In this document: in pieces, positions 5,370 through 50,215 of the stretch
How positions within the stretch are numbered: the first letter of the stretch is position 1
Layout: every line of letters starts with the position of its first letter
Assembly (NCBI RefSeq): GCF_036053395.1
Contig: NZ_CP107942.1
Span: 5,546,501-5,610,500, forward strand
Origin: Actinoplanes sp. NBC_00393
GTDB taxonomy: Bacteria; Actinomycetota; Actinomycetes; Mycobacteriales; Micromonosporaceae
Length of the DNA: 64,000 nt
Direction: 5' to 3'
The notes under the pieces: model-generated
What the model saw: only the letters and a program-made list of their open reading frames with translations
Database searches by the model: none
What the model was told of the DNA's origin: nothing
Program-made: the position numbers and the translations under genes

Positions 5370-6100
5370 ACACCATCCTGGTAGCCGGCATCGGCAACCT
5401 GTTCCTCGGCGACGACGGCTTCGGCCCCGAGGTGGCCCGCACCCTGGCCACCTCCATCACCCTGCCCGCCGGTGTGCGCACAGCGGATTACGGGATCCGC
5501 GGCCTCCACCTCGCCCACGACCTGCTGGCCGGCTACCAAGCCCTGATCCTCATCGACGCCCTCCCCACCACTCCCGACGATCCGCCCGGCTCCGTCGCAG
5601 TGCTCCACATCCCGGCTGACCCCCACCGCTGCCTCCCGGCCGACGAAGCAGCACTGGCCGTCAGCCCAGAGCAACCAGCTGACAGCGAGCGCTGCCTCCC
5701 GGCCGACGAAGCAGCACTGGGCGTCAGCCCAGAGCAGCCAGCTGACAGCGAGCGCTGCCTCCCGGCCGACGAAGCAACACTGGGCGTCAGCCAAGAGCAA
5801 CCAGCTGACAGCGAGCGCTGCCTCCCGGCCGAAAAGGCAGCACTGGGCGTCAGCCGGATGGATGCGCACGGCATGGACCCGGTCGCTGTGCTCGGGGCGG
5901 TCGAGCGGCTCGGCGGGACTGTGCCGCCCACCTATGTGGTGGGATGCCGGGTCGCCGATGTCGGCGAGCGCATCGGGCTGAGCCCGGCGGTCGCTGCGGC
6001 CGTGCCCGAAGCCGTGGCCGCAGTGCACGCCCTGCTGGCCCACCTCGCGGCCAGCTCACCCTCTGCGGCCCGACCCGCCGCCGCGCCGGGGAGGCGGTAG
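5366..6100 (+). CDS. hydrogenase maturation protease with in-frame repeat insert
   Basis: A HyaD/HycI-type endopeptidase, 244 aa against the usual 150-180. The N-terminus VAGIGNLFLGDDGFGPEVA carries the conserved GIGN...DDG nickel-binding region, and the C-terminal part (DPVAVLGAVERLGG, VVGCRVADVGERIGLSP) also fits the family. The enzyme cleaves the large-subunit tail after Ni insertion. Residues ~84-163 are an insert of almost four 21-residue repeats, encoded by a 63-bp tandem repeat, sitting between the IDALPT region and the MDAHGMDP region. If the enzyme is active, the insert must be tolerated as a surface loop. GTG start overlaps the upstream stop. Confidence 0.85.
   Translation: MNTILVAGIGNLFLGDDGFGPEVARTLATSITLPAGVRTADYGIRGLHLAHDLLAGYQALILIDALPTTPDDPPGSVAVLHIPADPHRCLPADEAALAVSPEQPADSERCLPADEAALGVSPEQPADSERCLPADEATLGVSQEQPADSERCLPAEKAALGVSRMDAHGMDPVAVLGAVERLGGTVPPTYVVGCRVADVGERIGLSPAVAAAVPEAVAAVHALLAHLAASSPSAARPAAAPGRR
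5615..5855 (+). repeat. 63-bp tandem repeat, 3.8 copies, inside the protease gene
   Basis: Units begin at 5615, 5678, 5741 and 5804, so the period is exactly 63 bp. Each begins GCTGAC and contains GTCAGCC about 45 bases later. The unit encodes 21 residues including RCLPADEAALGVSPEQ. The same unit type, related in sequence, is found in intergenic DNA at 20.7-21.05, 42.98-43.36 and 49.9-50.2 kb. Confidence 0.95.
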
Positions 6101-6102
6101 CC

Positions 6103-8781
6103 GTGTGCCTCGGCATTCCGGGACGGGTGCGGGAGATCCTGCCGGGTAACGCCGGACACCTCGCGCTGGTCGACGTGGCGGGCGCCGGCCGGCGGGTCAA
6201 CATCGGCATGCTGGAGACCGCGCCGGCGCCCGGGGACTGGGTGCTGATCCACCTCGGCTTCGCCGTGGAGATCATCGACGAGGCGCAGGCGGCCCGGGCG
6301 ATGTCCGGCCTCGAGCTGATGGGCAGCGGCCCGGAACCCGCCAGGCAGCTCGGCGGCGGCGCGAAAGCCGACGGCGCGGCAGCCGACGGCGCGGCAGCCG
6401 ACGGCGCGGCAGCCGACGGCGCGGCAGCCGACGATGCGGCAGCCGGCAGCGCGAAAGCCGACGGCGCGAAAGCCGACAACGCGACAGCCGACAACGCGGC
6501 AGCCGACGGCGCGGCGCGGGTGCGGTGGCGGTTCACGGTGGGTGGGCTGGTGCAGGGGGTGGGGTTCCGGCCGTTCGCGTATGTGACGGCGTCCGAACTG
6601 GGGCTCAGCGGCGAGGTCAGCAACACCGGCGACGGGGTGGTCATCGAGGTCGAAGGCGAACCCGAGGCGGTCGCCGCATATGGGCGGCGGCTCCGGGACG
6701 AAGCGCCACCGCTGGCGATGGTGGCCGCCGTCGAGGAGGAGGAGCTGGCGGTCGAAGGTGGGACCGGGTTCCGGATCGCTGCGTCGGATGGGAGCGGGCC
6801 CGCCCGTACGCTCGCTTCGCCTGATGTCGCGACCTGCGCGGACTGCTTGCGTGAGCTGCTGGACCCGGCCGACCGGAGGTTCCGGCACCCGTTCATCACC
6901 TGCACGAACTGCGGGCCGCGCTTCACCATCATCGACACGCTGCCGTATGACCGGGCGGCCACCACGATGGCCGGCTTCCCGATGTGCGACGCCTGCCGCG
7001 CCGAGTACGACGACCCGTCCGACCGCCGCTTCCACGCCCAGCCGATCGCCTGCCCCGGCTGCGGCCCCCGCCTCGAGCTGGTCACCGCCGACGGCCCGCC
7101 CCGCTACGGCGAGGACGCCCTCCAGGAGGCCCGGCGGCTGCTCGCGACCGGCGCGATCGTCGCGGTGAAGGGCCTCGGCGGCTACCACCTGGCCTGCGAC
7201 GCCCGCGACGACAAGGCGGTGACCACGCTGCGCGAGCGCAAGCGGCGCGGCGGCAAACCTTTCGCCGTGATGGTCGCCGATCTGGGCACCGCCCGCGACC
7301 TGGTGACCCTGTCCGACGGCGAGGAACGGCTGCTCACCGGGGTACGCCGCCCGATCGTGCTGCTCCCCCGCCGCGACGACAGCCCGGGTGTCGCCGCCGC
7401 GGTCGCCCCCGACCACTCCGAACTCGGCGTCATGCTGCCCTACACCCCGCTGCACGTGCTCCTCCTCGAGAAACCCGGCCCGGACGCCCTGGTCATGACC
7501 TCGGGCAACCTCGCCGGCGAGCCGATCGCTTCGGACGACGAGGACGCCCGCAAACGGCTCGCCCCGCTGGCCGACGCCTGGCTGCGCCACGACCGGGCCA
7601 TCCGGGTCCCGTGCGACGACTCGGTCACCCGGCACGCCGCCGGCGCCGAACTCCCGGTCCGCCGGTCCCGCGGTTACGCCCCGCTGCCGGTCACCGTCCC
7701 GTTCGAGCTGACTCCCGCCCTGGCCGTCGGCGCCGACCTGAAGAACACCTGCGTGATCGGCGCCGGCCGGTACGCGTGGGCCAGCCAGCACATCGGCGAC
7801 CTGGACGACCTGGCCGGCATCGACGCGCTGACCGCCAGCGAGAACCACCTGGAACGTCTCACCGGCGTCCGCCCCGAGCTGCTGATCGCCGACCTGCACC
7901 CCGGCTACCACTCCACCGGCTGGGCCCGCGCGCACGCCGACGGCCGCCCGGTACGCCTGGTCCAGCACCACCACGCGCACATCGCAGCGGTTCTCGCCGA
8001 GCACGGCGTGGGACCGGACGAGCAGGTGATCGGGTTCGCGTTCGACGGCACCGGCTACGGAACCGACGGCGCCGTCTGGGGCGGCGAGGTGCTGGTCGCC
8101 GGTTACAAGGCGTTCCGGCGCGTGGCGTACCTCGGCTATGTGCCCCTGGCCGGGGGTGACGCGAGTGTGCGCCGCCCGTACCGGATGGCTCTGTCGCATC
8201 TGCGTGCCGCCGGCGTGCCCTGGTGGCCCGCGCTGCCTCCGGTGACCGCCTGCCCGGCCGCGGAACGGGACGTGCTGGACCGGCAGTTCGGCAGCGGTTT
8301 CGGCTGCGTGCCGACCTCCAGCATGGGCCGCTTGTTCGACGCGGTGGCCGCGCTGGCCGGGGTCCGGCAGATCGTCGAGTACGAGGCGGAGGCCGCGATG
8401 ATCCTGGAGGGTCTGGCTGCCCGGCACGGCCTGGAGCCGCATCCGGCGTACGCGTTCGAGCTGCGCAGCGACGTCGCCGATCCGGGACCGGTGATCCGGG
8501 CGGTGGCCGCGGACGTCCGTGCGGGCGTGTCCCCGGCGGCCGTCGCGGCCCGGTTCCATGCCGCGGTGGCCGGCCTGATCGTCCGGCTGGCCGAGCAGTG
8601 CCGGGAGCAGACCGGGCTGGGCGTGGTGGCGCTGGGCGGCGGCGTCTTCCAGAACGCGCTGCTGCTCGCCGCCGCTGAGCAGGACCTGACCGAACGCGGC
8701 TTCCGGGTGCTGCGGCCCCGGCTGCTGCCGCCCAACGACGGCGGCATCGCGCTCGGCCAACTCGTCGTGGGCGCCGCGTAG
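6103..8781 (+). CDS. hypF: HypC-HypF fusion protein
   Basis: An 892-aa protein that joins two maturation factors. Residues 1-80 (VCLGIPGRV at the start) are a HypC domain with the essential Cys2 after the initiator. Residues ~87-139 are an Ala/Asp/Gly repeat linker. From ~140 the HypF part follows: acylphosphatase domain with VQGVGFRPF, four zinc-finger CxxC pairs (CADC, CTNC, CDAC, CPGC), a YrdC-like carbamoyl-AMP domain, and a Kae1-like domain with HHHAHI near residue 622. HypF makes carbamoyl-AMP and passes the group to HypE; HypC with HypD carries the Fe(CN)2CO unit. Fusion of these two is unusual, because HypC normally pairs with HypD. A GTG start two bases after the protease stop is used. 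Confidence 0.92.
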   Translation: MCLGIPGRVREILPGNAGHLALVDVAGAGRRVNIGMLETAPAPGDWVLIHLGFAVEIIDEAQAARAMSGLELMGSGPEPARQLGGGAKADGAAADGAAADGAAADGAAADDAAAGSAKADGAKADNATADNAAADGAARVRWRFTVGGLVQGVGFRPFAYVTASELGLSGEVSNTGDGVVIEVEGEPEAVAAYGRRLRDEAPPLAMVAAVEEEELAVEGGTGFRIAASDGSGPARTLASPDVATCADCLRELLDPADRRFRHPFITCTNCGPRFTIIDTLPYDRAATTMAGFPMCDACRAEYDDPSDRRFHAQPIACPGCGPRLELVTADGPPRYGEDALQEARRLLATGAIVAVKGLGGYHLACDARDDKAVTTLRERKRRGGKPFAVMVADLGTARDLVTLSDGEERLLTGVRRPIVLLPRRDDSPGVAAAVAPDHSELGVMLPYTPLHVLLLEKPGPDALVMTSGNLAGEPIASDDEDARKRLAPLADAWLRHDRAIRVPCDDSVTRHAAGAELPVRRSRGYAPLPVTVPFELTPALAVGADLKNTCVIGAGRYAWASQHIGDLDDLAGIDALTASENHLERLTGVRPELLIADLHPGYHSTGWARAHADGRPVRLVQHHHAHIAAVLAEHGVGPDEQVIGFAFDGTGYGTDGAVWGGEVLVAGYKAFRRVAYLGYVPLAGGDASVRRPYRMALSHLRAAGVPWWPALPPVTACPAAERDVLDRQFGSGFGCVPTSSMGRLFDAVAALAGVRQIVEYEAEAAMILEGLAARHGLEPHPAYAFELRSDVADPGPVIRAVAADVRAGVSPAAVAARFHAAVAGLIVRLAEQCREQTGLGVVALGGGVFQNALLLAAAEQDLTERGFRVLRPRLLPPNDGGIALGQLVVGAA
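6361..6519 (+). repeat. 15-bp in-frame repeat forming the HypC-HypF linker
   Basis: About ten imperfect copies of a 15-bp unit (GCGGCAGCCGACGGC and variants with AAAGCC or AACGCG) encode AADGA-type pentapeptides. The stretch joins the HypC and HypF domains without a stop codon and contains GCCGAC steps like those of the 63-bp repeats elsewhere. Confidence 0.9.
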
Positions 8782-8793
8782 GAGGGAGACGTC

Positions 8794-9057
8794 ATGTGCC
8801 TCGCTGTTCCCGGCCGGGTTCTGAGCATCACCGAGGCGGACGGCGTGCCGATGGCCGAGGTCGACTTCGGTGGGGTGCGCAAGGAGGTGTGCCTGCAGTA
8901 CGTGCCGGACGTCCGGGTCGGCGAGTACGTGATCGTGCACGTCGGTTTCGCCATCCAGCAGCTCGACGAGGAGTCGGCCCGGCAGACCCTGGCCAACTTC
9001 GAGCGGATGGGAATCTTGGAGGAGGAGTTCGGTGAAGTACCTCGACGAGTTCAGTGA
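8794..9057 (+). CDS. hypC: hydrogenase chaperone HypC
   Basis: An 87-aa stand-alone HypC. The N-terminus MCLAVPGRV has the Cys2 needed to hold the Fe(CN)2CO precursor, followed by the typical [15 protein letters not shown] and [13 protein letters not shown] stretches. It follows the fusion gene by 12 bases with GGAGGGAG as ribosome site. This is the second HypC domain in the operon; because it overlaps hypD it is the more likely partner of HypD. Confidence 0.95.
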
Positions 9058-10126
9058 TCCCGCCCTGGCCGCGCGGCTGGTCGAGCAGATCCATGCGGCC
9101 ACCACCCGGCCCTGGGCGATGATGGAGGTCTGCGGCGGGCAGACCCACTCGATCATCCGGCACGGCATCGACCAGCTGCTGCCGGACGGTGTCGAGATGA
9201 TCCACGGGCCGGGCTGCCCGGTCTGCGTCACCCCGCTCGAAGTGATCGACAAGGCGCTCGCGATCGCGGCGCGGCCCGGCGTGATCTTCTGCTCGTTCGG
9301 CGACATGCTGCGGGTGCCGGGCAGCGGGCAGGACCTGTTCGGGGTGAAGAGCGCGGGCGGCGACGTCCGCGTCGTCTACTCCCCGATGGACGCGCTGAAA
9401 CTGGCCCGGGAGAACCCGGACCGGCAGGTGGTGTTCTTCGGCATCGGCTTCGAGACCACCGCCCCGGCCAACGCGATGACCGTGCACCAGGCCCGGCGGC
9501 TCGGCCTGACCAACTTCTCGCTGCTGGTGTCGCACGTGCTGGTGCCACCGGCGATCGCGGCCATCATGGAGTCGCCGCGCTGCCGGGTGCAGGCGTTCCT
9601 GGCCGCCGGGCACGTGTGCAGCGTGATGGGCACCCGGGAGTACCCGCCGCTGGCCGAGAAGTACGGAGTGCCGATCGTGGTCACCGGGTTCGAACCGCTC
9701 GACATCCTGGAGGGCATCCGGCAGACGGTCACGCTGCTGGAAGCCGGCCGGGCGGAGGTGCGCAACGCGTACCCGCGGGCGGTGCGCGACGAGGGCAACC
9801 CGGCGGCGATGGCGATGCTGCGCGACGTGTTCGAGGTGACCGACCGGACGTGGCGCGGCATCGGTGAGATCCCGGGCAGCGGCTGGCGGCTCTCCCCGCG
9901 GTACCGGGAGTTCGACGCGGAACTGCGTTTCGACGTGGGCGGGCTGCACACCGCGGAGTCGCCGTTGTGCCGCTCGGGCGAGGTTCTGCAGGGGCTGCTC
10001 AAACCGCACGAGTGCGCGGCCTTCGGCAAGCAGTGCACGCCGCGGACGCCGCTGGGCGCGACCATGGTCTCGTCGGAGGGGGCCTGTGCGGCGTATTACG
10101 CGTACCGGTTGGTGACCCACTCATGA
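9032..10126 (+). CDS. hypD: hydrogenase maturation factor HypD
   Basis: A 364-aa FeS protein that, with HypC, assembles the Fe(CN)2CO group. Family motifs are clear: CGGQTHSI near residue 36, [11 protein letters not shown] near 63, and [13 protein letters not shown] near 133, plus cysteines near the C-terminus ([30 protein letters not shown]). A GTG start at 9032 follows GGAGGAG and overlaps the end of hypC by 26 bases. The next gene overlaps its stop (ATGA). Confidence 0.96.
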
Positions 10127-11178
10127 CCCTTGATTTCGAGAGTTGGACCTGCCCGGTGCCGCTGCGCGACACCCCCGCGATCGTGCTGGGCCACGGCGGG
10201 GGCGGCGCGATGTCCGCCGAGCTGGTGCAACATCTCTTCCTTCCGGGGTACGGGTCCGCAGGCGCCCCCGGCGAGCTGGGCGACTGTGCGGTGCTGGAGG
10301 TCGCCGGCGCCCGGCTGGCGTTCTCCACCGACGGTTTCGTGGTCAAGCCGATGGTCTTCCCCGGCGGCTCGATCGGCGACCTGGCGGTTAACGGCACCGT
10401 CAACGACCTGGCGATGTCCGGCGCCACCCCGCTGTACCTGTCGGCCGCCTTCATCCTGCAGGAGGGCACCGCGCTCGCCGAGATCGGCCGGATCGCCGAG
10501 GCGATGGGCGCCGCCGCCCGGGCCGCCGGGGTGCGGCTGGTCACCGGCGACACGAAGGTGGTGGACAACGGCAGCGGCGACGGCGTCTTCATCACCACGG
10601 CCGGGATCGGCGTGGTTCCGGACGGCGTCGACATCCGCCCCGGCCGCGCGAGTCCCGGCGACGCGATCCTGATCAGCGGCGACCTCGGCGAACACGGGGT
10701 GGCCGTGCTGAGCTGCCGGGAGGGCCTGACCTTCGGCACCGAGGTGCGCAGCGACACCGCGCCGCTGCACGGCCTGGTCGCGGCGATGCTCGCCACCGAA
10801 GCCGACGTGCACGTGCTGCGCGATCCGACCCGCGGTGGGGTGGCGGCCGCGCTCAACGAGATCGCCAAGGCCGCGGGCGTCGGTGTCGAGCTGGTCGAGC
10901 GGGATCTGCCGGTGCCGGGTGAGGTGGCGGACGCGTGCAGCCTGCTCGGGCTCGACCCGTTGCAGGTGGCCAACGAGGGGAAGCTGATCGCGTTCGTGCC
11001 GGCGGAACGGGCGGACGAACTGCTCGAGGCGATGCGGGCGCACCCGTACGGAAAGAATGCTCGCAGGATCGGCACCTGCGTGCCGGACCATCCCGGCATG
11101 GTCGTGGCCCGCACCGCGCTCGGCGGCACCCGGGTGATCAGCATGCCGATCGGCGAACAGCTCCCACGGATCTGCTGA
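10123..11178 (+). CDS. hypE: hydrogenase maturation factor HypE
   Basis: A 351-aa PurM/AIRS-family ATPase that dehydrates a carbamoyl group on its C-terminal cysteine to thiocyanate, the source of the CN ligands. The C-terminus ends in PRIC, the reactive cysteine being the last residue as required. Other family features: [12 protein letters not shown] near residue 23, [25 protein letters not shown], and the [13 protein letters not shown] motif. It should receive the carbamoyl group from the HypF part of the fusion protein encoded upstream. Confidence 0.96.
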
Positions 11179-11179
11179 G

Positions 11180-13978: not shown

Positions 13979-13999
13979 CCCGCCACCCCCACTCAGAAT

Positions 14000-14013
14000 T
14001 AGAACGCGTTCTA
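14000..14013. promoter_or_regulatory. KstR-type operator (TAGAACGCGTTCTA)
   Basis: Perfect 14-bp palindrome matching TnnAACnnGTTnnA at all eight fixed positions, 21 bases before the alcohol dehydrogenase start. On the minus strand it runs into TAATTC, a possible -10 element, so a bound repressor would block the promoter. Confidence 0.88.
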
Positions 14014-14036
14014 CGCTATCCGGGTGGGGTGAACCA

Positions 14037-14050: not shown

Positions 14051-14070
14051 AGGGCGGCATAATAGGCCTG

Positions 14071-20659: not shown

Positions 20660-20716
20660 CTTCTGCGGAGGGTACGCCGAGCCCCGCCCCACCGCCAGAG
20701 CCCCTTCCGCCGCCCG

Positions 20717-21054
20717 CAAGCAACACTGCGCGTCAGCCCACCCAACCCGGCTGACCGCCAGAGCGGCTTCCAGCCGCCGGAAACGACGCTGCGCGTCAGC
20801 CGACCCAACCCTGCTGACCGCCAGAGCGGCTTCAGGCCACCCGAAACGACGCTGCACGTCAGCCGGGCAAACCCGGCTGACCGCCAGAGCGGCTTCGGGC
20901 CACCGGAAGCGACGCTGCGCGTCAGCCGGGCGAACCCGGCTGACCGCCAGAGCGGCTTCAGGCCGGCGGAAACGACGCTGCGCGTCAGCCGGGCGAACCG
21001 GCTGACCGCCAGAGCGGCTTCGGGCCGGCGGAAGCGACGCTGGTTGTCAGCTTG
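20717..21054. repeat. 63-bp tandem repeats filling the ALDH-SDR gap
   Basis: GCTGAC starts fall at 20750, 20813, 20876, 20939 and 21001 (63, 63, 63, 62 bases), with a partial unit before. Each unit ends GCGTCAGCC, giving an inverted repeat. The rest of the 426-bp gap holds only the ALDH promoter. The last unit supplies the stop codon (TCA on the plus strand at 21047) of the SDR gene, so the array has fused to the gene end. Confidence 0.95.
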
Positions 21055-22006
21055 GGCGGAACTCGGTCAGGTAGGCGGGCCACTCGCCGCCGCCGTGGAC
21101 GGCGAGGGCGGCGCCGCTCACGTAGCCGGCCAGCGGGGAGGCCAGGAAGAGGCAGGCGCCGGCTACGTCGTCGGGTGAAGCGGTTCGGCCGGCCGGCACG
21201 GTGCGGGCGGCGACTGCTGGGGTCAGGCCGTTGCCGACCGGGCCGACTACGAGGCTGTTCACGCGTACCGCCGGGGCCCATTCCACGGCGAGGCTGGCGG
21301 CGAGATTCAGCAGGCCCGCCTTGGCGGCGCCGTAGGCGGCGGTGCCGGGTGACGGCCTGGTGCCGCTCACGCTGCCGATCATCAGGATCACCCCGCCGCC
21401 GGGCTGGGCCTGCATGACCGCGTTGGCTGCCTGCGAGACGTGCAGCGGTGCGATCAGGTTCAGCTCGATCACCTTGGCGTGCAGCCGGGGCGAGGCGCTG
21501 TCCGCAGCGACCTGCGGGCTGCCGCCGGCGTTGTTGACCACCACGTCGAGCCGCCCGAACCGGGCCACCGCCTCGTTGATCAGCGCGGCCGCCTGCTCCG
21601 GGTCCCGCACGTCGGCGCGGAAGAAGCCTGGCCCGCCGCGCGGCGCCGCGCCACCCCCGCCACCGCCGATCGGCACCGCGTGGCCGTCGGCAGCGCCCGA
21701 GCTGTAGGTGGAGGTTGCACCGGAAGGCCGGGCGGCGGCGGGCAGCGGCAAGGTGGACGTTGCACCGGAAGGCGGGGCGAAGGAGGAGGGCAGCGGCGAG
21801 GTGGAGGTTGCACCGGAAGGCGGGGCGGCGGAGGGCCGCGGCGAGGTGGAGGTTGCGGTGACGGCGGATAGCGGGGCTGGGGGTGTTCGGCCGCAGACCA
21901 GTACGTCGGCGCCGGCGCGGTGGAAGGCTGCGGCGATCTGGGCGCCTATTCCGCGGGTGCCGCCGGTGACGACCACGGCCTTGCCGGTGAAGTCGAGGGG
22001 GTCCAT
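21047..22006 (-). CDS. SDR-family oxidoreductase with ~80-residue repeat insert (Rv3549c-like)
   Basis: A 319-aa SDR with normal ends: GGTRGIGAQIA at residues 15-25, VVNNAGGSPQ, the YGAAKAG active site, and a C-terminus AGYVSGAALAVHGGG. Between the second strand (VLVCGR) and the FFRADVRDPEQ strand lies an insert of about 80 residues, rich in Ser/Ala/Pro/Thr/Gly, made of PPSGATSTSPLPS-type repeats. SDRs normally have about ten residues there. Position divergent from echA20 with a KstR2 site between matches Rv3549c, a KstR2-regulon member thought to act in C/D-ring breakdown. Whether the enlarged enzyme folds normally is open. Confidence 0.82.
   Translation of the reverse strand: MDPLDFTGKAVVVTGGTRGIGAQIAAAFHRAGADVLVCGRTPPAPLSAVTATSTSPRPSAAPPSGATSTSPLPSSFAPPSGATSTLPLPAAARPSGATSTYSSGAADGHAVPIGGGGGGAAPRGGPGFFRADVRDPEQAAALINEAVARFGRLDVVVNNAGGSPQVAADSASPRLHAKVIELNLIAPLHVSQAANAVMQAQPGGGVILMIGSVSGTRPSPGTAAYGAAKAGLLNLAASLAVEWAPAVRVNSLVVGPVGNGLTPAVAARTVPAGRTASPDDVAGACLFLASPLAGYVSGAALAVHGGGEWPAYLTEFRPS
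21700..21860. repeat. 45/48-bp in-frame repeat inside the SDR gene
   Basis: Three units of 45, 48 and 45 bases start with GAGGTTGCACCGGAAGGC or close variants (plus-strand reading). All are multiples of three and encode Pro/Ser/Ala/Thr-rich peptide on the minus strand. Confidence 0.88.
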
Positions 22007-30155: not shown

Positions 30156-30202
30156 CCGCGGCCGCCACATACACAACCAACCCGGCGAAGACGTGCCTGG
30201 CA

Positions 30203-30560
30203 GGCGGCTCACGACCGCCAGCCGCCAGCCACGCACGCAACAACGGCCGCGGGGACGTGCTTGGTGGGCGGCTCACCAACGCCAGCCGCCAGCCACGCAC
30301 GCAACAACGGCGCCGAGACATGCGCAGCAGGCGGCTCACCAACGCCAGCCGCCAACCACGCACGCAACAACGACGCGCAGACATGCGCAGCAGGCGGCTC
30401 ACCAACGCCAGCCGCCACCCAGACCTGCAACCGGACCCCCGAAACGTGCGGGGACGGCGGCTCGGCGGGACCAGCCGCCAGTCAGGCACGAAACCGGGCC
30501 GAGACGTGCGCGGCGGGCGGCTCGCGAGTGCTGGCGGCCGGTTGGGCGGGGAACAGCACG
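30203..30560. repeat. 63-bp tandem repeats between convergent genes (second sequence type)
   Basis: GGCGGCTC anchors lie at 30203, 30267, 30330, 30393, 30456 and 30516 (64, 63, 63, 63, 60). Each unit contains CGCCAGCCGCCAGCCACGCA or similar. The 480-bp gap between the HIT gene and the 2H phosphoesterase gene holds no other feature. The period equals that of the GCTGAC family, but the sequence is a different subfamily, closer to 49.7-49.9 kb. Confidence 0.93.
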
Positions 30561-41318: not shown

Positions 41319-41334
41319 CACTCTTGTTCGCGTC

Positions 41335-41417
41335 CGCTCTTGCTCGCGCCTGCTCTTGCACGCGCCAGCTCTTGCACGCGCCTGCTCTTGCACGCGCCTG
41401 CTCTTGCACGCGCTTCT
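41335..41417. repeat. 16-bp tandem repeats after echA19
   Basis: At least four copies of CTGCTCTTGCACGCGC or CAGCTCTTGCACGCGC, with degenerate copies at each end. The period (16) is not a multiple of three, unlike the coding repeats, so a methyltransferase start upstream of it is unlikely. Confidence 0.9.
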
Positions 41418-41451
41418 TCTCGCGCCTGGGAATCCGGTTGCCGGCGGGCCG

Positions 41452-42225: not shown

Positions 42226-42234
42226 CCGGCCCGC

Positions 42235-42490
42235 TGCCGTTCTCCAGCCAGGCCGGCTGCCGTTGTCCAGCTTGGCGGTGGGCCAGCTGCCGTTCTCCAG
42301 CTTGGCGGTGGGCCAGCTGCCGTTCTCCAGCTTGGCGGTCGGCCGGCTGCCGTTGTCCAGCTGGCGGTGGGCCGGCTGCCGTTGTCCAGCTGGCGGTGGG
42401 CCGGCTGCGTTCTCCAGTTAGGCGATCGGCAGGCTGCCGTTGTCCAGCTGGCGGTGGGCCGGCTGCGTTCTCCAGTTAGGCGATCGGCAG
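42235..42490. repeat. 29/30/58-bp repeats derived from the Nudix 3' end
   Basis: Units such as GGCCAGCTGCCGTTCTCCAG plus CTTGGCGGTG recur eight or nine times, first with 30 or 29 bases and then as two longer copies that contain GGCGATCGGCAGGCTGCCGT. That longer copy is the same as the 3' end of the Nudix gene (42476-42515), so the array seems to have grown by copying the gene's end. Confidence 0.9.
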
Positions 42491-42949
42491 GCTGCCGTTC
42501 TCCAGATAGGCGGTCGTGCCGTCGGCGCGAGCCCGGATCGCTGCGGCCACGCGGCGGGCGAGGAGGGTGGAAAGGCGGTCGACGGCCTCTGGTTCGGCGC
42601 ACCAGGCCCAGCTGCGCAGCTCGTCCGCGGGCAGGCTGATCCGGGCCGTCTGCTCCGCGTCGAGGACCCCGCCGTCGAAGACGAGCATGAAACCCTCGGT
42701 CCGTTCCGGCCTGGGCGGCACCCAGTCGGTGACCAGCAGCCTGCCGATCGGAAGCGTCAGGCCGAGCTCCTCTTTGAGCTCGCGCTGCGCGGCGGCCAGT
42801 GGCGACTCGTCGGCCTCGACGCAGCCGCCCGGAATCTCCCAGTCCGGCTTGTAGGCCGGCTCGACCAGCAGCACCCGGCCGGTTGGATCGGAGAGCAGGA
42901 CGCCCGCTCCCATCCGCTTACGAGGCAACGTCGCCGTGAAATCCCCCAT
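42476..42949 (-). CDS. Nudix hydrolase
   Basis: A 157-aa protein with a good Nudix box, GGCVEADESPLAAAQRELKE followed by ELGL, near residue 43-66. The N-terminus VLLSDPTGRVLLVEPAYKPDWEIPGG is typical. It hydrolyses a nucleoside diphosphate derivative; the actual substrate cannot be read. I chose ATG 42949 (MGDFTATL), because the earlier codons lie in a repeat. Its last 12 codons are shared with the repeat array downstream. Confidence 0.88.
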   Translation of the reverse strand: MGDFTATLPRKRMGAGVLLSDPTGRVLLVEPAYKPDWEIPGGCVEADESPLAAAQRELKEELGLTLPIGRLLVTDWVPPRPERTEGFMLVFDGGVLDAEQTARISLPADELRSWAWCAEPEAVDRLSTLLARRVAAAIRARADGTTAYLENGSLPIA

Positions 42950-42978
42950 CACCCCACCGTATTCGTCCCGCCAACCCC

Positions 42979-43358
42979 GGCTGGCGCTCACGGCTGCTTC
43001 AGCGGCGCCGAAACAACACTGAGCGTCAGCCGGTCAACCTCGGCTGACGCTCACGGCTGTTTCGGCGGCGCTGAAACGACACTGAGCGCCAGCCGGACAA
43101 CCTCGGCTGACGGTCACGGCTGCTTCGGCGGCGCTGAAACGACACTGAGCGCCAGCCGGACAACCTCGGCTGGCGGTCACGGCTGCTTCGGCGGCCCGGA
43201 TACAGCAGTCAGCGCCAGCCCGCAGGACCAGCCCAAGCCTGGCTGGCGGTCACGGCTGTTTCGGCGGCGCTGAGACGACACTCAGCGTCAGCTGGGCGAA
43301 CCCGGCTGACCTACAGGGCTGTCTCGGCGGCGTTTTGGCAGCGCTGGGGGTCAGCCGG
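42979..43358. repeat. 63-bp tandem repeats between Nudix and fadD17
   Basis: GGCTG(A/G)C starts at 42979, 43042, 43105, 43168, 43241 and 43304 (63, 63, 63, 73, 63). Units end GCG(T/C)CAGCC. They fill the 410-bp gap completely and run up to the fadD17 stop codon. Sequence is clearly related to the arrays at 5.6, 20.7 and 49.9 kb (shared TTCGG, GAAACGAC, CTGAGCGCCAGCCGG). Confidence 0.95.
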
Positions 43359-43359
43359 G

Positions 43360-44904
43360 CTAGATGGCTCGGGAGCGGGCGGACCAGTAGGGGTCTCGGA
43401 GGTGGCGTTTGTAGAGCTTGCCGTTCGGGTCGCGGGGCAGCTCGTCGACGTAGTCGATGGTTCGGGGCAGTTTGAACTTCGCGAGGCGGCCGCCCAGGAA
43501 GTCCAGCAGCGAAACGGTCAGCGCCGGGCCGGGGGTTACGCCGGGGGCGGGCTGGACCACGGCCTTGATCTCCTCGCCCCACTCGTCGTGGGGGATGCCG
43601 AAGACGGCTACGTCGCCGACGGACGGGTGGACGGCCAGTTCGTTCTCGATCTCTGCCGGATAGACGTTCACGCCGCCGGTGATGATGACGTCGGCGGCGC
43701 GGTCGCAGAGGAACAGGTAGCCGTCGTCGTCGAGGTAGCCGATGTCGCCGACGGTGAACATGCGGTCGCGCCAGGAGGCCCGGGTCTTGTCGGCGTCGTT
43801 GTGGTATTCGAACGTGGCGTCGCCCATCTGCAGGTAGACCTGGCCGGGAGTGCCGACCGGGGCGTCCTTGCCGTCGTCGTCGAGGACACGGACGCGGGAG
43901 CCGGGCCAGGCGCGGCCGACTGAGCCGGGACGGTCGAGCCATTCGGCGGCGGTGATCAGGGTGCCGCCGCCTTCGGAGGCCGCGTAGTACTCGATCACTA
44001 CCGGGCCGAACCAGTCGAGCATCTGCTGTTTCACCGGCTGCGGGCACGGGGCGGCGCCGTGGATCATCGCGCGCATCGAGGAGACGTCAGTGGCGGCGCG
44101 AACCGAGGACGGGAGGGCGAGCAGGCGGCGGAACTGGGTGGGGACCATGTGACTGTGGGTGACCCGGTGCCGGTTCACCAGGGAGAGGAACTGCGCAGCG
44201 TCCCAGTGGTCCATCACGACGACGGTGTGGCCGAACTGGACGGAGATCACCGCGAAGTTCATCACCGCCGTGTGGTAGAGCGGTGAGCAGCACAGATGCA
44301 CGTGATCGTCGAACGGCCGGAGCCCGAACAGGCCGAAGAACCAGAGCGAGACGGGCGGCACGTCGTCCGGGTCGAGGCCGAGCAGCGGGCGGCGTACCCC
44401 TTTGGGCCGGCCGGAGGTGCCGGACGTGTAGACCATGAGCGCGCCGAGCGTACGCCCGTCGGGTCTGCCTGATCCGCCCGCGCCGAGCGTGGCCAGTGGC
44501 TCGAAGCCCGGGATGTCGCCGACCGCGTAGCGGGCGCCGGAGAATGCGGACGAAGCCGATGCCGCCACGGCGGCCTCGGCGAAGCGGGCGTGCGCGATGA
44601 AGGCACGCGCGCCGCTGTCGCGCAGGATGTAGCCGAGCTCAGATCCGGTCAAATGCCAATTCAGGGGTACGACGTGAAGCCCGATCTGAACCGCCGCGAA
44701 ATAGGCGGTGAGGATGTCGGCGCCGTTCGGCAGCAGCAGGGCCACGGTGTCCCCGGCCTTGAGCCCGGCTGCACGCAGACCGCGGCCGATCCGGTCGGCC
44801 TCGGCCGCCAGCTCGCCGTAGGTGACAGTGCGCCCGTCGGCCTCGACAACGGCCGCGAGCTGCGGTGACTGGTGCGCGACGGTCCACATCCCGATCCCGG
44901 TCAT
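43360..44904 (-). CDS. fadD17: FadD17-like steroid acyl-CoA ligase
   Basis: A 514-aa AMP-forming ligase. P-loop VYTSGTSGRPKGVRRP near residue 160, YYAASEGGGTLIT near 308, GDIGYLDDDGYLFLCDR near 392 and the C-terminal lysine in PRDPNGKLYKRHL. Length and placement next to the Rv3521-Rv3523 type operon point to FadD17 (Rv3506), which activates C24/C5 side-chain acids; other KstR-regulon ligases cannot be excluded. ATG 44904 lies 10 bases from a KstR operator. Confidence 0.83.
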   Translation of the reverse strand: MTGIGMWTVAHQSPQLAAVVEADGRTVTYGELAAEADRIGRGLRAAGLKAGDTVALLLPNGADILTAYFAAVQIGLHVVPLNWHLTGSELGYILRDSGARAFIAHARFAEAAVAASASSAFSGARYAVGDIPGFEPLATLGAGGSGRPDGRTLGALMVYTSGTSGRPKGVRRPLLGLDPDDVPPVSLWFFGLFGLRPFDDHVHLCCSPLYHTAVMNFAVISVQFGHTVVVMDHWDAAQFLSLVNRHRVTHSHMVPTQFRRLLALPSSVRAATDVSSMRAMIHGAAPCPQPVKQQMLDWFGPVVIEYYAASEGGGTLITAAEWLDRPGSVGRAWPGSRVRVLDDDGKDAPVGTPGQVYLQMGDATFEYHNDADKTRASWRDRMFTVGDIGYLDDDGYLFLCDRAADVIITGGVNVYPAEIENELAVHPSVGDVAVFGIPHDEWGEEIKAVVQPAPGVTPGPALTVSLLDFLGGRLAKFKLPRTIDYVDELPRDPNGKLYKRHLRDPYWSARSRAI

Positions 44905-44914
44905 GCCGCGACTC

Positions 44915-44928
44915 TATAACTCGTTCCA
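44915..44928. promoter_or_regulatory. KstR-type operator for fadD17 (TATAACTCGTTCCA)
   Basis: All eight fixed positions match TnnAACnnGTTnnA. It lies 10 bases upstream of the fadD17 start on the minus strand. Confidence 0.78.
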
Positions 44929-44970
44929 TCTATGGAAAAGCTTCTGGACAGCCCGCTTGCCGACGAATAT

Positions 44971-44984
44971 TGGAACGTGTTTCA
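44971..44984. promoter_or_regulatory. KstR-type operator for the ltp operon (TGGAACGTGTTTCA)
   Basis: All eight fixed positions match. It lies 21 bases upstream of the DUF35 gene and 42 bases from the first site, suggesting one operator per direction. Confidence 0.8.
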
Positions 44985-45005
44985 CTCAACGGCGTGGAAG
45001 CGCCC

Positions 45006-45923
45006 ATGGCCATCGCCTTCGACTACACGCGGTCGCTCGGGCCGGTGCTGGGCCGGTTCATGGCGGGCCTGCGGGACCGCCGGGTGCTCGGCAGCCGGAC
45101 CGCTGACGGGCGGGTTCACGTGCCGCCGGTGGAGTACGACCCGGTCACGCTCGCCCCGGTCGAGGACCTGGTCGAGGTCGCGAGCGTCGGCACGGTCGTC
45201 ACCTGGACCTGGATGGAACGGCCGGTCGAGGGGCAGCCGCTGGAGGAGCCCTTCGGGTGGGCGCTGATCCGGCTCGACGGGGCGGACACTCCGCTGCTGC
45301 ACGCGGTCGACGCGGGTGCGCGGGAGAACATGCGCACCGGGATGCGGGTGCGGGTCCGCTGGGCAGCCGAGCGCACCGGCCACATCCGGGACATCGAGTG
45401 CTTCGAGCCCGGCGTGGAGGCGGTAGAACCAGACGCCGAGGGTGAGCCGGTCACGATCATGACCACGCCGATCCGGCTGAGCTATCGGCACACCACCTCC
45501 GACGAGGAGGACCGGTATCTGCGGGCGCTCGCCGAGGGGCGGCTGATCGGCCAGCGCTGCCCGGCCTGCCACAAGGTGTACGTGCCACCCCGCGTCTGCC
45601 CCGCCGACGGCGTCGCACCGGACGAGGTCGTGGAGATCGCCGACCGCGGCACGGTCACCACCTTCTGCGTGGTCAACGTGCCGTTCGCGGGGCAGCGGCT
45701 GACCCCGCCGTACGTGGTGGCCCAGGTGTTGCTCGACGGCGCGGACATCCCGATCCCGCATCTCGTCCTCGGCGTCGAGGCCGAGCAGGTGCGGATGGGG
45801 TTGCGGGTGGCCGCGGTCTGGCGGGACCGGTCGGAGTGGTCCACGACGCCGGAGAACATCGCGCACTTCGAGCCGGCCGGTGAGCCGGACGCGCCCTACG
45901 AGTCGTATGCGGAGCACCTGTGA
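45006..45923 (+). CDS. tandem DUF35/OB-fold protein, Rv3521-like
   Basis: A 305-aa protein with two OB-fold domains and a zinc ribbon (CPACHKVYVPPRVCPADG near residue 186). Such proteins bind the acyl-CoA and pair with thiolase-like retro-aldolases: ChsH2 or Rv3521 with Ltp2, Ltp3 or Ltp4. The second domain has VTTFCVVNVPFAGQ and PPYVVAQVLLDGAD. Followed directly by ltp4 and ltp3, as in Rv3521-Rv3523. Start ATG 45006 is 21 bases after the operator. Confidence 0.88.
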   Translation: MAIAFDYTRSLGPVLGRFMAGLRDRRVLGSRTADGRVHVPPVEYDPVTLAPVEDLVEVASVGTVVTWTWMERPVEGQPLEEPFGWALIRLDGADTPLLHAVDAGARENMRTGMRVRVRWAAERTGHIRDIECFEPGVEAVEPDAEGEPVTIMTTPIRLSYRHTTSDEEDRYLRALAEGRLIGQRCPACHKVYVPPRVCPADGVAPDEVVEIADRGTVTTFCVVNVPFAGQRLTPPYVVAQVLLDGADIPIPHLVLGVEAEQVRMGLRVAAVWRDRSEWSTTPENIAHFEPAGEPDAPYESYAEHL

Positions 45924-46912
45924 ACGCCGTCGCCGTCGTCGGTTTCGCCCGGTCCGATCAGTCGCTGACGACGAGCGGGGTGGAGACCCTGGTGCCCGTG
46001 ATCGGGGACGCTCTGCAACAGGCCGGGCTCGCCAAGCGTGAGGTGGACTTCTGGTGCTCCGGATCGTCGGACTATCTGGCGGGGCGGGCGTTCTCGTTCG
46101 TCAACGCGGTGGACGCGATCGGGGCGGTTCCGCCGATCAGCGAGTCGCACGTGGAGATGGACGCGGCCTGGGCGCTGTACGAGGCGTACCTCAAGATTCT
46201 GGCCGGGGAGGCCGAGACGGCGCTGGTGTACGGGTTCGGCAAGGGGACGGCCGGTGAGTTGCATCGGGTGCTGGCTCTGCAGCTGGACCCGTACACGGTG
46301 GCGCCCCTCTGGCCGGATGCGGTGAGTGTGGCTGCTTTGCAGGCCCGGCTCGGGCTGGAGGCCGGGTTGTTCACCGAGCGCGAGATGGCGTCGGTGGCGG
46401 CCCGCGACTCGGGTGGCGATGTCGAGGAGATGCTCGGTCGGCCGTACATCGCGGATCCTTTGCGTGCCCACGACGTCGCGCGAGTCGGTGACGGCGCCGC
46501 AGCCATCGTGCTCGCCGCCGGCGATCGTGCCCGTGGATGCCGGGAGCGCCCCGCCTGGATCTCCGGGATCGCGCATCGCGTCGACCCGCAGGGGCTGGGT
46601 GAGCGGGATCTGACCGCGGTGCCGTCGGCGACCGCGGCCGGCCGCGATGCCGGGCTGGACAGTGACGTGGACGCGGTGGCGTTGCATGCGCCGTTCACAC
46701 CGCAGGAGCTGCTGTTGCGGGCGGCGCTCGGTGTCGCCGGGGAGAAGGTCGTCCCCAGCGACGGCGATGCGATGTTCTCGGCCGGGCTGTCCCGGATCGG
46801 CGCCGCGGCCGAGGAGATCATGTCCGGCCGGGCGGAGCGGGCCGCCGGGCACGCGACCAGCGGACCTGCGCTACAGCAGAATCTCGTCTGCGTCATGGAG
46901 GCGGCATCGTGA
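45920..46912 (+). CDS. ltp4: Ltp4-like thiolase-fold lipid-transfer protein
   Basis: A 330-aa SCP-x/thiolase-like protein. It reads ESHVEMDAAWALYEAYLKILAGEAETALVYGFGK and later the GDGAAAIVLAAGD motif; the C-terminal GHATSGPALQQN replaces the usual GHxxGG loop, which suggests a regulatory or non-catalytic subunit. Ltp4 (Rv3522) cooperates with Rv3521 and Ltp3. GTG start overlaps the previous stop. Confidence 0.87.
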   Translation: MNAVAVVGFARSDQSLTTSGVETLVPVIGDALQQAGLAKREVDFWCSGSSDYLAGRAFSFVNAVDAIGAVPPISESHVEMDAAWALYEAYLKILAGEAETALVYGFGKGTAGELHRVLALQLDPYTVAPLWPDAVSVAALQARLGLEAGLFTEREMASVAARDSGGDVEEMLGRPYIADPLRAHDVARVGDGAAAIVLAAGDRARGCRERPAWISGIAHRVDPQGLGERDLTAVPSATAAGRDAGLDSDVDAVALHAPFTPQELLLRAALGVAGEKVVPSDGDAMFSAGLSRIGAAAEEIMSGRAERAAGHATSGPALQQNLVCVMEAAS

Positions 46913-48060
46913 GGAGAGCGGCGGTACTCGGGACCGGGCAGACCGAACACCGCACCCGGCGCACCGACGTCTCGATGGCGGGCCTGTGCCGGGAGGCGAT
47001 CGACCGGGCCCTCGCCGACGCCGGCACCGACTGGTCGCAGATCGACGCCGTGGTGCTCGGCAAGGCGCCCGACCTGTTCGAAGGCGTGATGATGCCGGAG
47101 CTGTTCCTGGCCGCGTCGCTGGGCGCCGCCGGGAAACCGCTGCTGCGGGTGCACACCGCCGGATCGGTGGGCGGGGCCACCGCGATCGTGGCGACCAGCC
47201 TGATCCGGGCCGGCGTGCACCGGCGGGTGCTGGCCGTCGCGTTCGAGAAGCAGTCCGAGTCGAACGCGATGTGGGCGCTCTCGATCCAGCCGCCGTTCAC
47301 CGCGCCGATCGGGGCCGGGGCGGGCGGCTACTTCGCGCCGCACATCCGGTCGTACATCCGCCGGTTCGACGCGCCGCCGCACATCGGGACGCTGGTGGCG
47401 GTCAAGGATCGCCGCAACGGGGCGCTCAATCCGTACGCCCACCTGCGCCAGCCCGACATCACCCTGGAGTCGGTGCGCGAGTCGCGGATGCTGTGGGATC
47501 CGATTCGGTACGACGAGACGTGCCCCTCCTCCGACGGGGCGTGTGCCGTCGTGATCGGCGACGAGGCGGCGGCGTCTGCCTCCACGCGGCAGGTGGCCTG
47601 GATCCGGGCGACCGCCATGCGGACCGAGCCGACGTTCTACTCGGGCAAGGACCACGTCAATCCGCAGGCGGGGGCGCTGGCCGCGGCGTCGTTGTGGGCT
47701 GCCGCCGGGATCAAGTCGCCGCTGGACGAGATCGATGTCGCCGAGCTGTACGTCCCGTTCTCATGGTTCGAGCCCATGTGGCTGGAGAACGTCGGATTCG
47801 TCGGACAGGGGCAGGGCTGGAAGCTCGTCGAAAGCGGCGAGACCCGCATCGGCGGAGCGCTCCCCGTGAACCCGTCCGGCGGTGTCCTCTGCTCCAACCC
47901 GATCGGCGCATCCGGCCTGCTGCGCTTCGCCGAAGCTGCCATGCAGGTGATGGGCCGGGCCGGTGAACACCAGGTGCCGGGCGCCGCGACGGCGCTCGGG
48001 CACGCCTACGGGGGCGGATCCCAGTTCTTCTCCATGTGGGTGGTCGGGAGACAGCCATGA
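46909..48060 (+). CDS. ltp3: Ltp3-like aldolase/thiolase
   Basis: A 383-aa thiolase-fold protein. It has a normal GHAYGGGSQFFSMWV C-terminal loop, VHTAGSVGGATAIVATSLIRAG where thiolases carry the active-site Cys (here Ser), and SSDGACAVVIGDEA. Such replacements are typical of the Ltp retro-aldolases that release propionyl-CoA-type fragments from side chains. With the DUF35 protein and Ltp4 it should form one complex. GTG start overlaps the ltp4 stop; the stop overlaps the cholesterol oxidase start. Confidence 0.88.
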   Translation: MRRAAVLGTGQTEHRTRRTDVSMAGLCREAIDRALADAGTDWSQIDAVVLGKAPDLFEGVMMPELFLAASLGAAGKPLLRVHTAGSVGGATAIVATSLIRAGVHRRVLAVAFEKQSESNAMWALSIQPPFTAPIGAGAGGYFAPHIRSYIRRFDAPPHIGTLVAVKDRRNGALNPYAHLRQPDITLESVRESRMLWDPIRYDETCPSSDGACAVVIGDEAAASASTRQVAWIRATAMRTEPTFYSGKDHVNPQAGALAAASLWAAAGIKSPLDEIDVAELYVPFSWFEPMWLENVGFVGQGQGWKLVESGETRIGGALPVNPSGGVLCSNPIGASGLLRFAEAAMQVMGRAGEHQVPGAATALGHAYGGGSQFFSMWVVGRQP

Positions 48061-49670
48061 AACGTCGTACCGTGCTCCAGGCCGGCGCCCTGAGCGTCGG
48101 CGCCGTGGCCCTCGAACAGGTGCCCGCCCTGCGGGGACGCACCGCTGTGATCATCGGGAGCGGGTTCGGTGGTGCGGTCGCCGCGTACCGGCTGGCCCAG
48201 GCCGGCATGGTGGTGACGGTGCTGGAGCGGGGACGCCGCTGGACCGTGGACGGTTCCGGCACCACGTTCTGCACGATCAGCAACCCGGACTGGCGGTGCG
48301 CGTGGTTCGGTGACCGGCCGCCGCTGGGCCTGGACACCAGCAAGACCATCGAGCGCCGGGCCGGCCTCATTCAGAAGCACATCGGTGACGGCATCCAGGT
48401 GATGTGCGGCGCGGGCGTCGGTGGTGGCTCGCTGGTGATCGGGATGTTCTTCCCGCAGCCGCGCCGGGGCGACTGGGAGAAGGTGTACCCACCTCAGCTC
48501 TCCTACTCGGAATTCGACAGCGTCTACTGGCCGCGGGCCCGGCAGAACCTCGGCGTCTCACCCCTTCCTGCGGACATCCAGGCCGCGGCCGGTTACGAGG
48601 GCGCCCGGTCCTGGCTGCAGTACATCGCGGAGTTCGGGCGTACCGCGGTGCCGGTGCCGTTCGGCGTCGACTGGGACGTGGTCCGCGACGAGATCGCCGG
48701 GCGGGTGGTCAAATGCCACAGCATCGGCGAAGGGCCGTTCGGCAGCAACTCCGGCGCCAAGAACAGCGTCGACCGCAACTATCTCGCCTGGGCCGAGGCG
48801 ACCGGCAACGTCCAGGTCCTGCCGTTGCACGAGGTCACCGAGATCCGCGAGGTGTCCGGCCAGGAACGCTTCGAGGTGGCGGCACGGCAGATCGACGACC
48901 GGGGCACGGTGCTGGCGTCCAAAGTGCTGCCCGCGGAGTTCGTGTTCCTGGCGGCCGGGTCGCTGGGCAGCACGTCACTGCTGCTCACCTCCCGCGCCCG
49001 GGGGCGGCTGCCCCGGCTGACCAGCACCGAGATCGGCAAGGGCTGGGGCAACAACGGGGACTTCCTGGTGGCCCGGCTGAACCTGCGCAAACCCGTCGGC
49101 AGCGCCCAGGGCGGGCCGGGCAACGTGCGGTTCTTCGACGACAGCAACCCGTACGCCCCCGCCGCCATGGCCTGGGAAGCCGCCCCCATCCCGTCCTGGC
49201 TGCCGGGCACCACCGCCCACCTGATCACCAGCCTGGCCCCGGAACGCGGCGAGATCCGCTACGACGCCGCCACCGGCACCGGCAAGGTCCACTGGCCGTA
49301 CGCCGAGATGGCCACCTCGTCCGACAAAGCCGGCCGCGACCTGGTCAGCCGGCTGTGGTGGCAGACCGAGGGAAGTCGCGGCAGTCTGCTCACCGGCCTG
49401 CCCTCCTACGACCGCAACACCGGCATGGGCCTGGGCTCCCGCAACACCTACCACCCGCTCGGCGGCCTGGTGATGGGCAAGGCCACCGACTACACCGGCC
49501 GGGTGGCCGGATACCCCAACCTCTACTGCGTGGACGGCGCCCTGCTGCCTGGCTCCGCCGCCCTGGCCAACCCGTCGCTGACGATCACCGCCAATGCCGA
49601 ACGCTGCCTGGACCACTTCCTGGCAACCCACACCACAGGGGTACGCGCGACGAGTCCCGCCGAACCGTGA
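48057..49670 (+). CDS. choD: cholesterol oxidase (GMC family), Tat-type N-terminus
   Basis: A 537-aa FAD flavoprotein that converts cholesterol and O2 to cholest-4-en-3-one and H2O2. The N-terminus MKRRTVLQAGALSVGAVAL has twin arginines and a hydrophobic stretch, as in Tat-exported oxidases. Then VIIGSGFGGAVAAYRL (FAD), GAGVGGGSLV near residue 121, NTYHPLGGLVMG with the active-site His, and SAALANPSLT with the active-site Asn. It is the last gene of the DUF35-ltp4-ltp3 operon (ATGA overlap), so expression follows the KstR site at 44971. Confidence 0.92.
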   Translation: MKRRTVLQAGALSVGAVALEQVPALRGRTAVIIGSGFGGAVAAYRLAQAGMVVTVLERGRRWTVDGSGTTFCTISNPDWRCAWFGDRPPLGLDTSKTIERRAGLIQKHIGDGIQVMCGAGVGGGSLVIGMFFPQPRRGDWEKVYPPQLSYSEFDSVYWPRARQNLGVSPLPADIQAAAGYEGARSWLQYIAEFGRTAVPVPFGVDWDVVRDEIAGRVVKCHSIGEGPFGSNSGAKNSVDRNYLAWAEATGNVQVLPLHEVTEIREVSGQERFEVAARQIDDRGTVLASKVLPAEFVFLAAGSLGSTSLLLTSRARGRLPRLTSTEIGKGWGNNGDFLVARLNLRKPVGSAQGGPGNVRFFDDSNPYAPAAMAWEAAPIPSWLPGTTAHLITSLAPERGEIRYDAATGTGKVHWPYAEMATSSDKAGRDLVSRLWWQTEGSRGSLLTGLPSYDRNTGMGLGSRNTYHPLGGLVMGKATDYTGRVAGYPNLYCVDGALLPGSAALANPSLTITANAERCLDHFLATHTTGVRATSPAEP

Positions 49671-49699
49671 CAGTCCCGCCTCGCCGCGCGATCAATGAG

Positions 49700-49913
49700 C
49701 GGCGGCCGGCCAGCACGAGCCGCCAGCCACACACGTCTCACCGCCCGCGAAACAGGCCTGACCGGCGGCCGGCCAGCACGAGCCGCCAGCCAGACACGTC
49801 TCACCGCCCGCGAAGCAGGCCTGACCGGCGGCCGGGCGGTGCGAGCCGCCAGCAGGGCGGGTTCCCGGGCCGGGAAACATGCGTGGAGGGCGGCCAGGCA
49901 ACCCGAGACGTCG
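49700..49913. repeat. 63-bp repeats after choD (subfamily of the 30-kb array)
   Basis: GGCGGCCGGC anchors at 49701, 49764 and 49827 (63 each) and 49889. Units include GAGCCGCCAGCCACACACGT or close forms, resembling the array at 30.2-30.56 kb in period and in the GCCGCCAGCCA core. It occupies the first part of the 634-bp gap between choD and cyp125. Confidence 0.9.
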
Positions 49914-50215
49914 GCGGCTGACCACCAGCGCTGCCTCAGCCGTCGCGAAGCGGCACCCAGCGATAGCCGGCAGGGCGGCTGACGGCGGCCGCGAAGCGGC
50001 GGACGGCGTCAGCCGGGTGGGCGGCGACCGCGAAGCGGCGGACGGCGTCAGCCGGGTGGGCGGCGACCGCGAAGCGGCGGACGGCGTCAGCCGGGTGGGC
50101 GGCGGCCGCGAAGCGGCGGGCGGCGTCAACCCGGTGGGCCGCGGCCGCGAAGCGGCGGGCGGCGTCAGCCGGGTGGGCGGCGACCGCAAAGCGGCGGGCG
50201 GCGTCGGCCGGGTGG
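49914..50215. repeat. GCTGAC-family repeats, then 39-bp repeats
   Basis: One unit of the GCTGAC family begins at 49914. From about 49977 six units of 39 bases follow (CGGCGACCGCGAAGCGGCGG plus ACGGCGTCAGCCGGGTGGG), a shortened form of the 63-bp unit that keeps the GCGTCAGCCGGG end. From 50216 to 50304 nothing else is seen. Confidence 0.92.

Follow-up and report, generated by a model that had tools for sequence, protein, structure and literature searches.

The genome of Actinoplanes sp. NBC_00393 carries a large family of short hairpin repeats, present both as single copies and as regular tandem arrays, and the mispaired positions within these hairpins are polarised in a way that tracks replication, not transcription. 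We consider this family to be probably a REP/MITE-like hairpin element that inserts as a single copy, is amplified in tandem and then evolves in a manner coupled to replication. Our description is centred on one stretch of 64,000 nucleotides, referred to here as the window, within a source genome that consists of a single contig of 11.43 Mb. An initial annotation of the window had proposed that four arrays share a unit starting with GGCTGAC and ending with GTCAGCC. This holds for arrays A, B and C; at array D, only the first unit (49916-49968) belongs to the family, and the rest is a 39-bp repeat. The arrays of the window and the genes that host or adjoin them are the following.

5327..6100, plus strand: HycI-like hydrogenase maturation protease gene containing array A (Pfam PF01750, E 1.4e-7; the open reading frame starts at 5327, the gene caller's model at 5366)
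5614..5855, plus strand: array A, four units with steps of 63, 63 and 63 bp (unit profile)
20686..21052, no strand assigned: array B, six units, the first of them weak (20.7 bits), with steps of 63, 63, 63, 63 and 62 bp (unit profile)
21047..21676, minus strand: short-chain dehydrogenase (SDR) gene with its stop inside array B (gene model; Pfam adh_short_C2 on the longer open reading frame 21047-22006)
30200..30523, no strand assigned: array of a second 63-bp family that differs in sequence from the first; keto-rich on the leading strand (TRF; composition)
42979..43356, no strand assigned: array C, six units with steps of 63, 63, 63, 73 and 63 bp, starting 3 nt past the stop of the AMP-binding gene
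43360..44904, minus strand: gene for an AMP-binding enzyme, immediately upstream of array C (Pfam PF00501, E 2.9e-67)
49696..49853, no strand assigned: array of the second 63-bp family, keto-rich on the leading strand (TRF; composition)
49916..49968, no strand assigned: array D, one degenerate family unit (nhmmer, 27 bits)
49983..50216, no strand assigned: 39-bp tandem repeat with the right end of the family (GGCGTCAGCC), adjoining unit D (TRF; sequence)

The two arrays of the second family had been absent from the initial annotation. TRF also reports tandem repeats at 6357-6515, 41321-41413, 42251-42514 and 63499-63626 (periods of 15, 16, 30/58 and 24/48 bp), and the source genome looks rich in minisatellites.

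Each unit of the main family consists of an imperfect palindrome of 53 bp and a spacer of 9-10 bp; the palindrome has a loop of 9 bases and stems of 12 and 8 bp. It starts with GGCTG and ends with CAGCC, many units have GACG/CGTC within both arms, and the spacers are alike within each array. An iterated profile (nhmmer) identified 401 units, forming 80 arrays and 14 singletons, in the 690 kb examined, 27 of these units scoring below 25 bits; the possibility that no copies exist beyond the window can clearly be set aside. The 690 kb comprise the window, 73 stretches around matches (L101-L173, some with several arrays) and seven arbitrary stretches of 20 kb (L174-L180), so that only the last, 140 kb with one array, serve as arbitrary controls. 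A covariance model gave 150 matches in the source genome, which is the number of candidates scored, and the unit and array totals are therefore lower bounds for the genome.

The proposal that the units share common descent is supported. A 192-bp query from array C matched the source genome 77 times at E <= 1e-3, far above chance, in a count that covers both strands, includes some places twice and takes in four matches to array C itself; among 19 relatives, the same query gave one weak match in one genome. The suggested hairpin potential of the inverted ends is supported by covariation. For this test, 132 units scoring at least 28 were drawn from three genomes, with a single unit taken from each array or singleton. 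Double changes were seen in 258 cells, against 92.5 ± 13.6 for 500 shuffles and 30-101 for slid controls; of all cells, 87.9% are paired, and four of the 20 pairs are invariant. Arm sequence differs among species while complementarity is retained. The period, given initially as exactly 63 bp for most steps, describes most steps in arrays A, B and C, but across the 690 kb steps of 62 bp (158 of 307) outnumber those of 63 bp (125), the two together making 283, and a further six measure 71-73 bp. The family combines inverted-repeat ends, a feature of MITEs, with tandem units of about 60 bp, a feature of minisatellites (VNTRs) and MIRU-like repeats. CRISPR can be rejected, since the spacers recur in most of the arrays listed rather than being unique. 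A known Rfam RNA is rejected too, the arrays and singletons searched giving only microRNA matches below the gathering threshold, on array C and at two of the four relative loci; two other matches below that threshold lie elsewhere in the window.

Placement relative to genes agrees with the initial annotation, in which arrays were said to lie after gene ends or in frame. According to our own gene caller, the 94 arrays and singletons occupy 55 convergent, 32 tandem (co-oriented) and three divergent gaps, two lie in genes and two have one side undetermined; the 81 control gaps longer than 60 bp, drawn from the window and the control stretches, are convergent in 15 cases, co-oriented in 39 and divergent in 27. 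Of the 144 gene ends that face arrays, 46 are no more than 15 nt away, and in 11 cases the stop codon is the TGA of the element itself, the SDR gene at array B being one of these. In the explanation that we favour, single copies occur preferentially at or just past stop codons, and their terminal GGC-TGA can offer a ready-made stop.

The initial annotation had further suggested a mobile or copy-spreading REP/MITE-like element that has evolved to be translatable. The copy-spreading palindrome is upheld, and the claim of evolution for translation is rejected: frame-breaking 62-bp steps outnumber 63-bp steps, only 20 of the 80 multi-unit arrays have exclusively steps divisible by three, and predicted genes fully enclose only two of the 94 arrays and singletons, which are in frame and have 63-bp steps only. 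Under the explanation that we favour, translation within genes is probably tolerated and simply follows from a length that is a multiple of three. One of the two cases is array A; the reading frame of the HycI-type protease runs through it, which adds about 80 residues to a loop of the protein. The insert is absent from all 80 named HycI homologues compared (the best 80 of 205): the 82-residue stretch aligns with 8-16 residues in 79 of them, and the remaining one has 32 residues there, from its own unrelated repeat. The loop seems to be a permissive site, since in the homologue from Actinoplanes solisilvae (L021) the same loop is filled by an unrelated peptide repeat, AQPAN/AQTAN. The second case lies outside the window: the gene at L147:2974-4500, on the minus strand, encodes what by eye is predicted to be a multi-span membrane protein, and three 63-bp units supply the coding sequence of its tail; no Pfam match was found for this protein.

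The polarity of the mispairs was unexpected. Read on the plus strand, one half of the chromosome has more G.T than A.C and the other half more A.C than G.T. The best two switch points, for whose fit no origin data were used, fall at 8.03-8.60 Mb, a range that includes dnaA (8.53 Mb), and at 2.91-2.99 Mb, close to the antipode computed from dnaA (2.82 Mb). None of 200 shuffles came closer than 78 log units to this fit. Once units are oriented along the leading strand, G.T accounts for 1002 of 1402 transition mispairs, and with all mispairs summed per array, 70 of the 94 arrays and singletons have the expected sign, 12 the opposite one and 12 are tied. This polarity tracks replication and not transcription. 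Where co-oriented genes are codirectional with the fork, G.T and A.C stand at 63:27 and 87:38 on the leading strand (150 of 215 in sum); where they are head-on, the counts are 67 against 51 for minus-strand genes of the right replichore and 62 against 13 for plus-strand genes of the left (129 of 193 in sum). Arrays beside lagging-strand genes thus have the same sign, and transcription polarity as a general cause is rejected. The idea that the element has an intrinsic orientation that follows replication was unsupported: of 90 cases oriented without supervision, 50 matched the leading strand (best of 25 starts; 57:33 from a single start).

Polarity is also clear in two further species and weak in a third. 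With one consensus per array, the counts for and against are 64:8 in the source genome (18 ties), 17:0 in G044 (three ties) and 9:0 in G010 (14 ties). In G066, a misregistered model gave 10:7, which is not significant, and a looser pattern, which also admits false units, gave 19:4, or 12:3 for multi-unit clusters. The loci of G010, G044 and G066 were picked from listed high-scoring matches, a choice that favours good hairpins.

The skew extends to the unpaired loops and spacers, and G.G exceeds C.C, which makes the polarity a compositional keto bias and not just tolerance of wobble pairs. Folded as DNA, the hairpin is stabler on the strand with the leading sequence in 63 of 79 multi-unit arrays (less stable in 14), in all 17 of G044 and in all nine of G010. 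Hairpin stability alone does not give a full account, since loops and spacers are skewed as well and T.C exceeds G.A even as G.G exceeds C.C. We also compared minor variants within arrays, as C>T per C column against G>A per G column, and obtained 0.130/0.140 in the source genome, 0.132/0.113 in G044 and 0.064/0.125 in G010. Recent variants in these three genomes thus carry no leading-strand excess of C>T, so that simple cytosine deamination fails to explain the polarity, and the bias is fixed at the level of the array and not in recent mutations.

Polarity belongs to the arrays and not to their flanks or to most other tandem repeats. Main-family arrays of at least two units are keto-rich on the leading strand in 77 of 80 cases. 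The rest of the intergenic DNA is flat (T/(A+T) 0.510, G/(G+C) 0.499), as is the background of G010 and, nearly, that of G044 (T/(A+T) 0.526). Singletons in G010 (n=14) and G044 (n=3) are 94-98% Watson-Crick paired with T/(A+T) of 0.51-0.52, and arrays in the same genomes are 70-84% paired with T/(A+T) of 0.58-0.62; the source-genome singletons above 25 bits (n=11) are 75.5% paired, with T/(A+T) of 0.54.

The element is almost confined to one genus. In a set with one genome per species, and with strict filters, the element was matched in 21 of 60 genus genomes, counting the source, and 39 gave no match; among the positive genomes, 18 yield 24 or more matches each and the other three just one or two. 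Eight of 150 genomes were positive in a family-level search, seven of them within the same genus, and six of 296 in a class-level search, which includes the source and five others with one to four weak matches. In a tree of the AMP-binding gene, comprising the 25 genomes in which this gene was matched, 16 element-rich genomes fall in two groups, each of which also has poor or empty members; the element-rich G040 and G053 lie outside it.

At the array C site, where the source genome has six units, G060 has a singleton: one perfect 53-bp hairpin (L187:3061-3113), which starts 13 nt beyond the stop codon of the orthologous AMP-binding gene. Of the 24 orthologous loci scanned, this is the only one with a hairpin at the site, G007 having a weak match elsewhere and 22 having nothing. 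A second site, that of the L157 array, had no unit in 30 loci from 18 relatives, the full gap between the flanking matches being covered in ten of them by our reckoning; the gap measures just 55 bp in G027 and 100 bp in G029. No relative has an array at either of these two sites, and therefore sites turn over fast. Neither a target-site duplication nor an exact filled-empty junction was obtained at the two sites, the intergenic sequence at L157 being unalignable by eye.

The relatives also differ in spacing. Of 119 steps in G044, 90 measure 62/63 bp and 16 measure 72/73 bp, and in G010 most measure 92-108 bp. In G010 singletons (for example L214, L229 and L231), the flanks partly prolong the palindrome (CACGGTCCC ... 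GGGACCGTG), so that the element may be longer there, near the array period of that genome.

Taken together, these results lead us to the following model. A single copy is a hairpin that measures about 53 bp in the source genome and in G044 and is apparently longer in G010; some copies would then be amplified into head-to-tail arrays of constant spacing, 62/63 bp here, probably by replication slippage or unequal exchange. The tandem units would subsequently lose perfect pairing in a replication-polarised way, with G and T building up on the leading-strand sequence, which is the strand exposed as lagging-strand template, and the hairpin would in this way remain stabler there than on the complement. 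The insertion as a hairpin, the order from singleton to array, slippage and a single-stranded DNA intermediate are what we infer from these patterns. More tentatively, the underlying process may be one of replication-coupled single-stranded hairpins, in which perfect hairpins insert singly and expansion favours variants that retain the hairpin on the leading-strand sequence only.

Ordinary mutation bias is a rather unlikely alternative. A leading strand rich in G and T is the classical sign of replication bias, arising from C>T changes on the lagging-strand template, and might simply be more visible in unconstrained repeats; the sign in the arrays is the same, and the noncoding tandem arrays outside the main family and outside the related periods described below have a slight excess of T (T/(A+T) 0.568). 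These other arrays are not keto-rich overall, however (29 of 62, G/(G+C) 0.472), and the flat backgrounds, the near absence of skew in singletons and the lack of a C>T excess among recent variants all argue against it. An RNA-level role, with 3' UTR hairpins acting as terminators or mRNA stabilisers and G.T read as G.U in the transcript, seems very unlikely to us. It would fit the 3'-end placement, the convergent enrichment, the G.U-like pairs and the covariation, and the units of arrays B and C (one folded per array) do fold better on the transcribed strand, which there is also the leading one. The unit of array A, however, folds better antisense, unpaired positions are skewed too, and the strand of G.T at arrays between co-oriented genes follows replication, whereas the polarity of an intrinsic terminator would follow transcription.

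KOPS and Chi are directional chromosome signals, and selection of a keto-rich signal of this kind, or of a helix-phased array of protein-bound dyads, could account for so consistent a polarity. The spacings of 62/63 and 71-73 bp correspond to about six and seven helical turns in the source genome and similarly in G044, but phasing fails in G010 with its longer steps. Together with the 39 genus genomes that have no match at the sensitivity used, the lack of arrays in relatives at both orthologous sites and the lone unit of G060, this makes such a signal improbable. We regard mobilisation as a REP/REPIN family in the strict sense, by a RAYT, as the least probable of these readings, despite the hairpin, the high copy number and the 3' placement. 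Searches with PF01797 found no intact RAYT-type (Y1) transposase, the enzyme that the initial annotation had proposed to look for, in the source genome: its two Y1_Tnp matches are both partial, one in a short open reading frame and one with an internal stop, they are by eye of IS200/IS605 type, and one lies beside a TnpB-like zinc-finger open reading frame. Across the genus, 15 of 60 genomes have a Y1_Tnp match, which splits into eight of the 21 element-positive and seven of the 39 element-negative genomes. The element-rich, single-contig genomes G024, G044, G059 and G066 have none, so that the element does not at present need a RAYT of the kind that PF01797 recognises; a mobilising enzyme of another type, or an ancestral one, is possible.

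Dispersed hairpin repeats are common in bacteria, and MIRUs provide a comparison among minisatellites. REP, BIME and REPIN sequences are likewise high-copy hairpin palindromes with compensatory changes, mostly located between convergent or unidirectional genes and sometimes within genes or in tandem clusters (PMC3733652, PMC3116915). The family described here shares the palindrome, the high copy number and the position 3' of genes between convergent or unidirectional open reading frames. REPs are defined by a length of 20-40 bp and a one-ended tetranucleotide tag, GTAG or CGTC (PMC3733652), whereas this element measures 53 bp and has GGCTG/CAGCC at both ends without such a tag; regular 62/63-bp arrays, the replication-strand keto polarity and the lack of a detected RAYT set it apart further. 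A possible parallel to the polarity is found in Pseudomonas fluorescens SBW25, where tandem REP arrays are reported to be oppositely oriented on the two sides of the chromosome (PMC3116915). Rickettsia palindromic elements and other MITEs are also short palindromes, some of them in frame in genes; the former are described as about 150 bp long and often inserted in frame (PMC10969869), whereas here two of 94 lie in genes, both as tandem arrays. Prokaryotic satellites and minisatellites similarly form tandem-repeat families scattered over the chromosome, and a survey table gives 23 satellites for Amycolatopsis mediterranei; the word 'hairpin' does not occur in the main text of that survey, and its passages on satellites describe neither a hairpin unit nor a replication polarity (PMC6749651).

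In the titles and abstracts of the open-access literature, with subscription papers mostly outside this scope, we recognised neither this family nor a replication polarity of hairpin arrays. What makes the family informative is that one genome contains both singletons and arrays, and that the arrays bear a strand bias set by the fork which is missing from their flanks and from most other tandem repeats. This gives a sequence-based handle on leading- versus lagging-strand expansion of hairpin repeats, and it shows that the 3' placement of such repeats need not reflect a function in the transcript. If the more tentative reading holds, every array preserves the direction in which the replication fork passed through it, and the family would be a replication-polarised minisatellite with its own RAYT-independent life cycle.

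A similar composition is seen in other arrays of related period. Sixteen noncoding tandem arrays that do not belong to the family have periods of 61-64 or 124-128 bp, and 15 of them are keto-rich on the leading strand; one of the 16, L160, resembles the main family. Beyond the window, the second 63-bp family is found at L125, L140, L154, L156, L170, L171 and L178, with short hairpins visible by eye. Its array at L178:17948-18719, with 12 copies at about 6.82 Mb, is reversed, being amino-rich on the leading strand, and possibly lies in a recently inverted segment.
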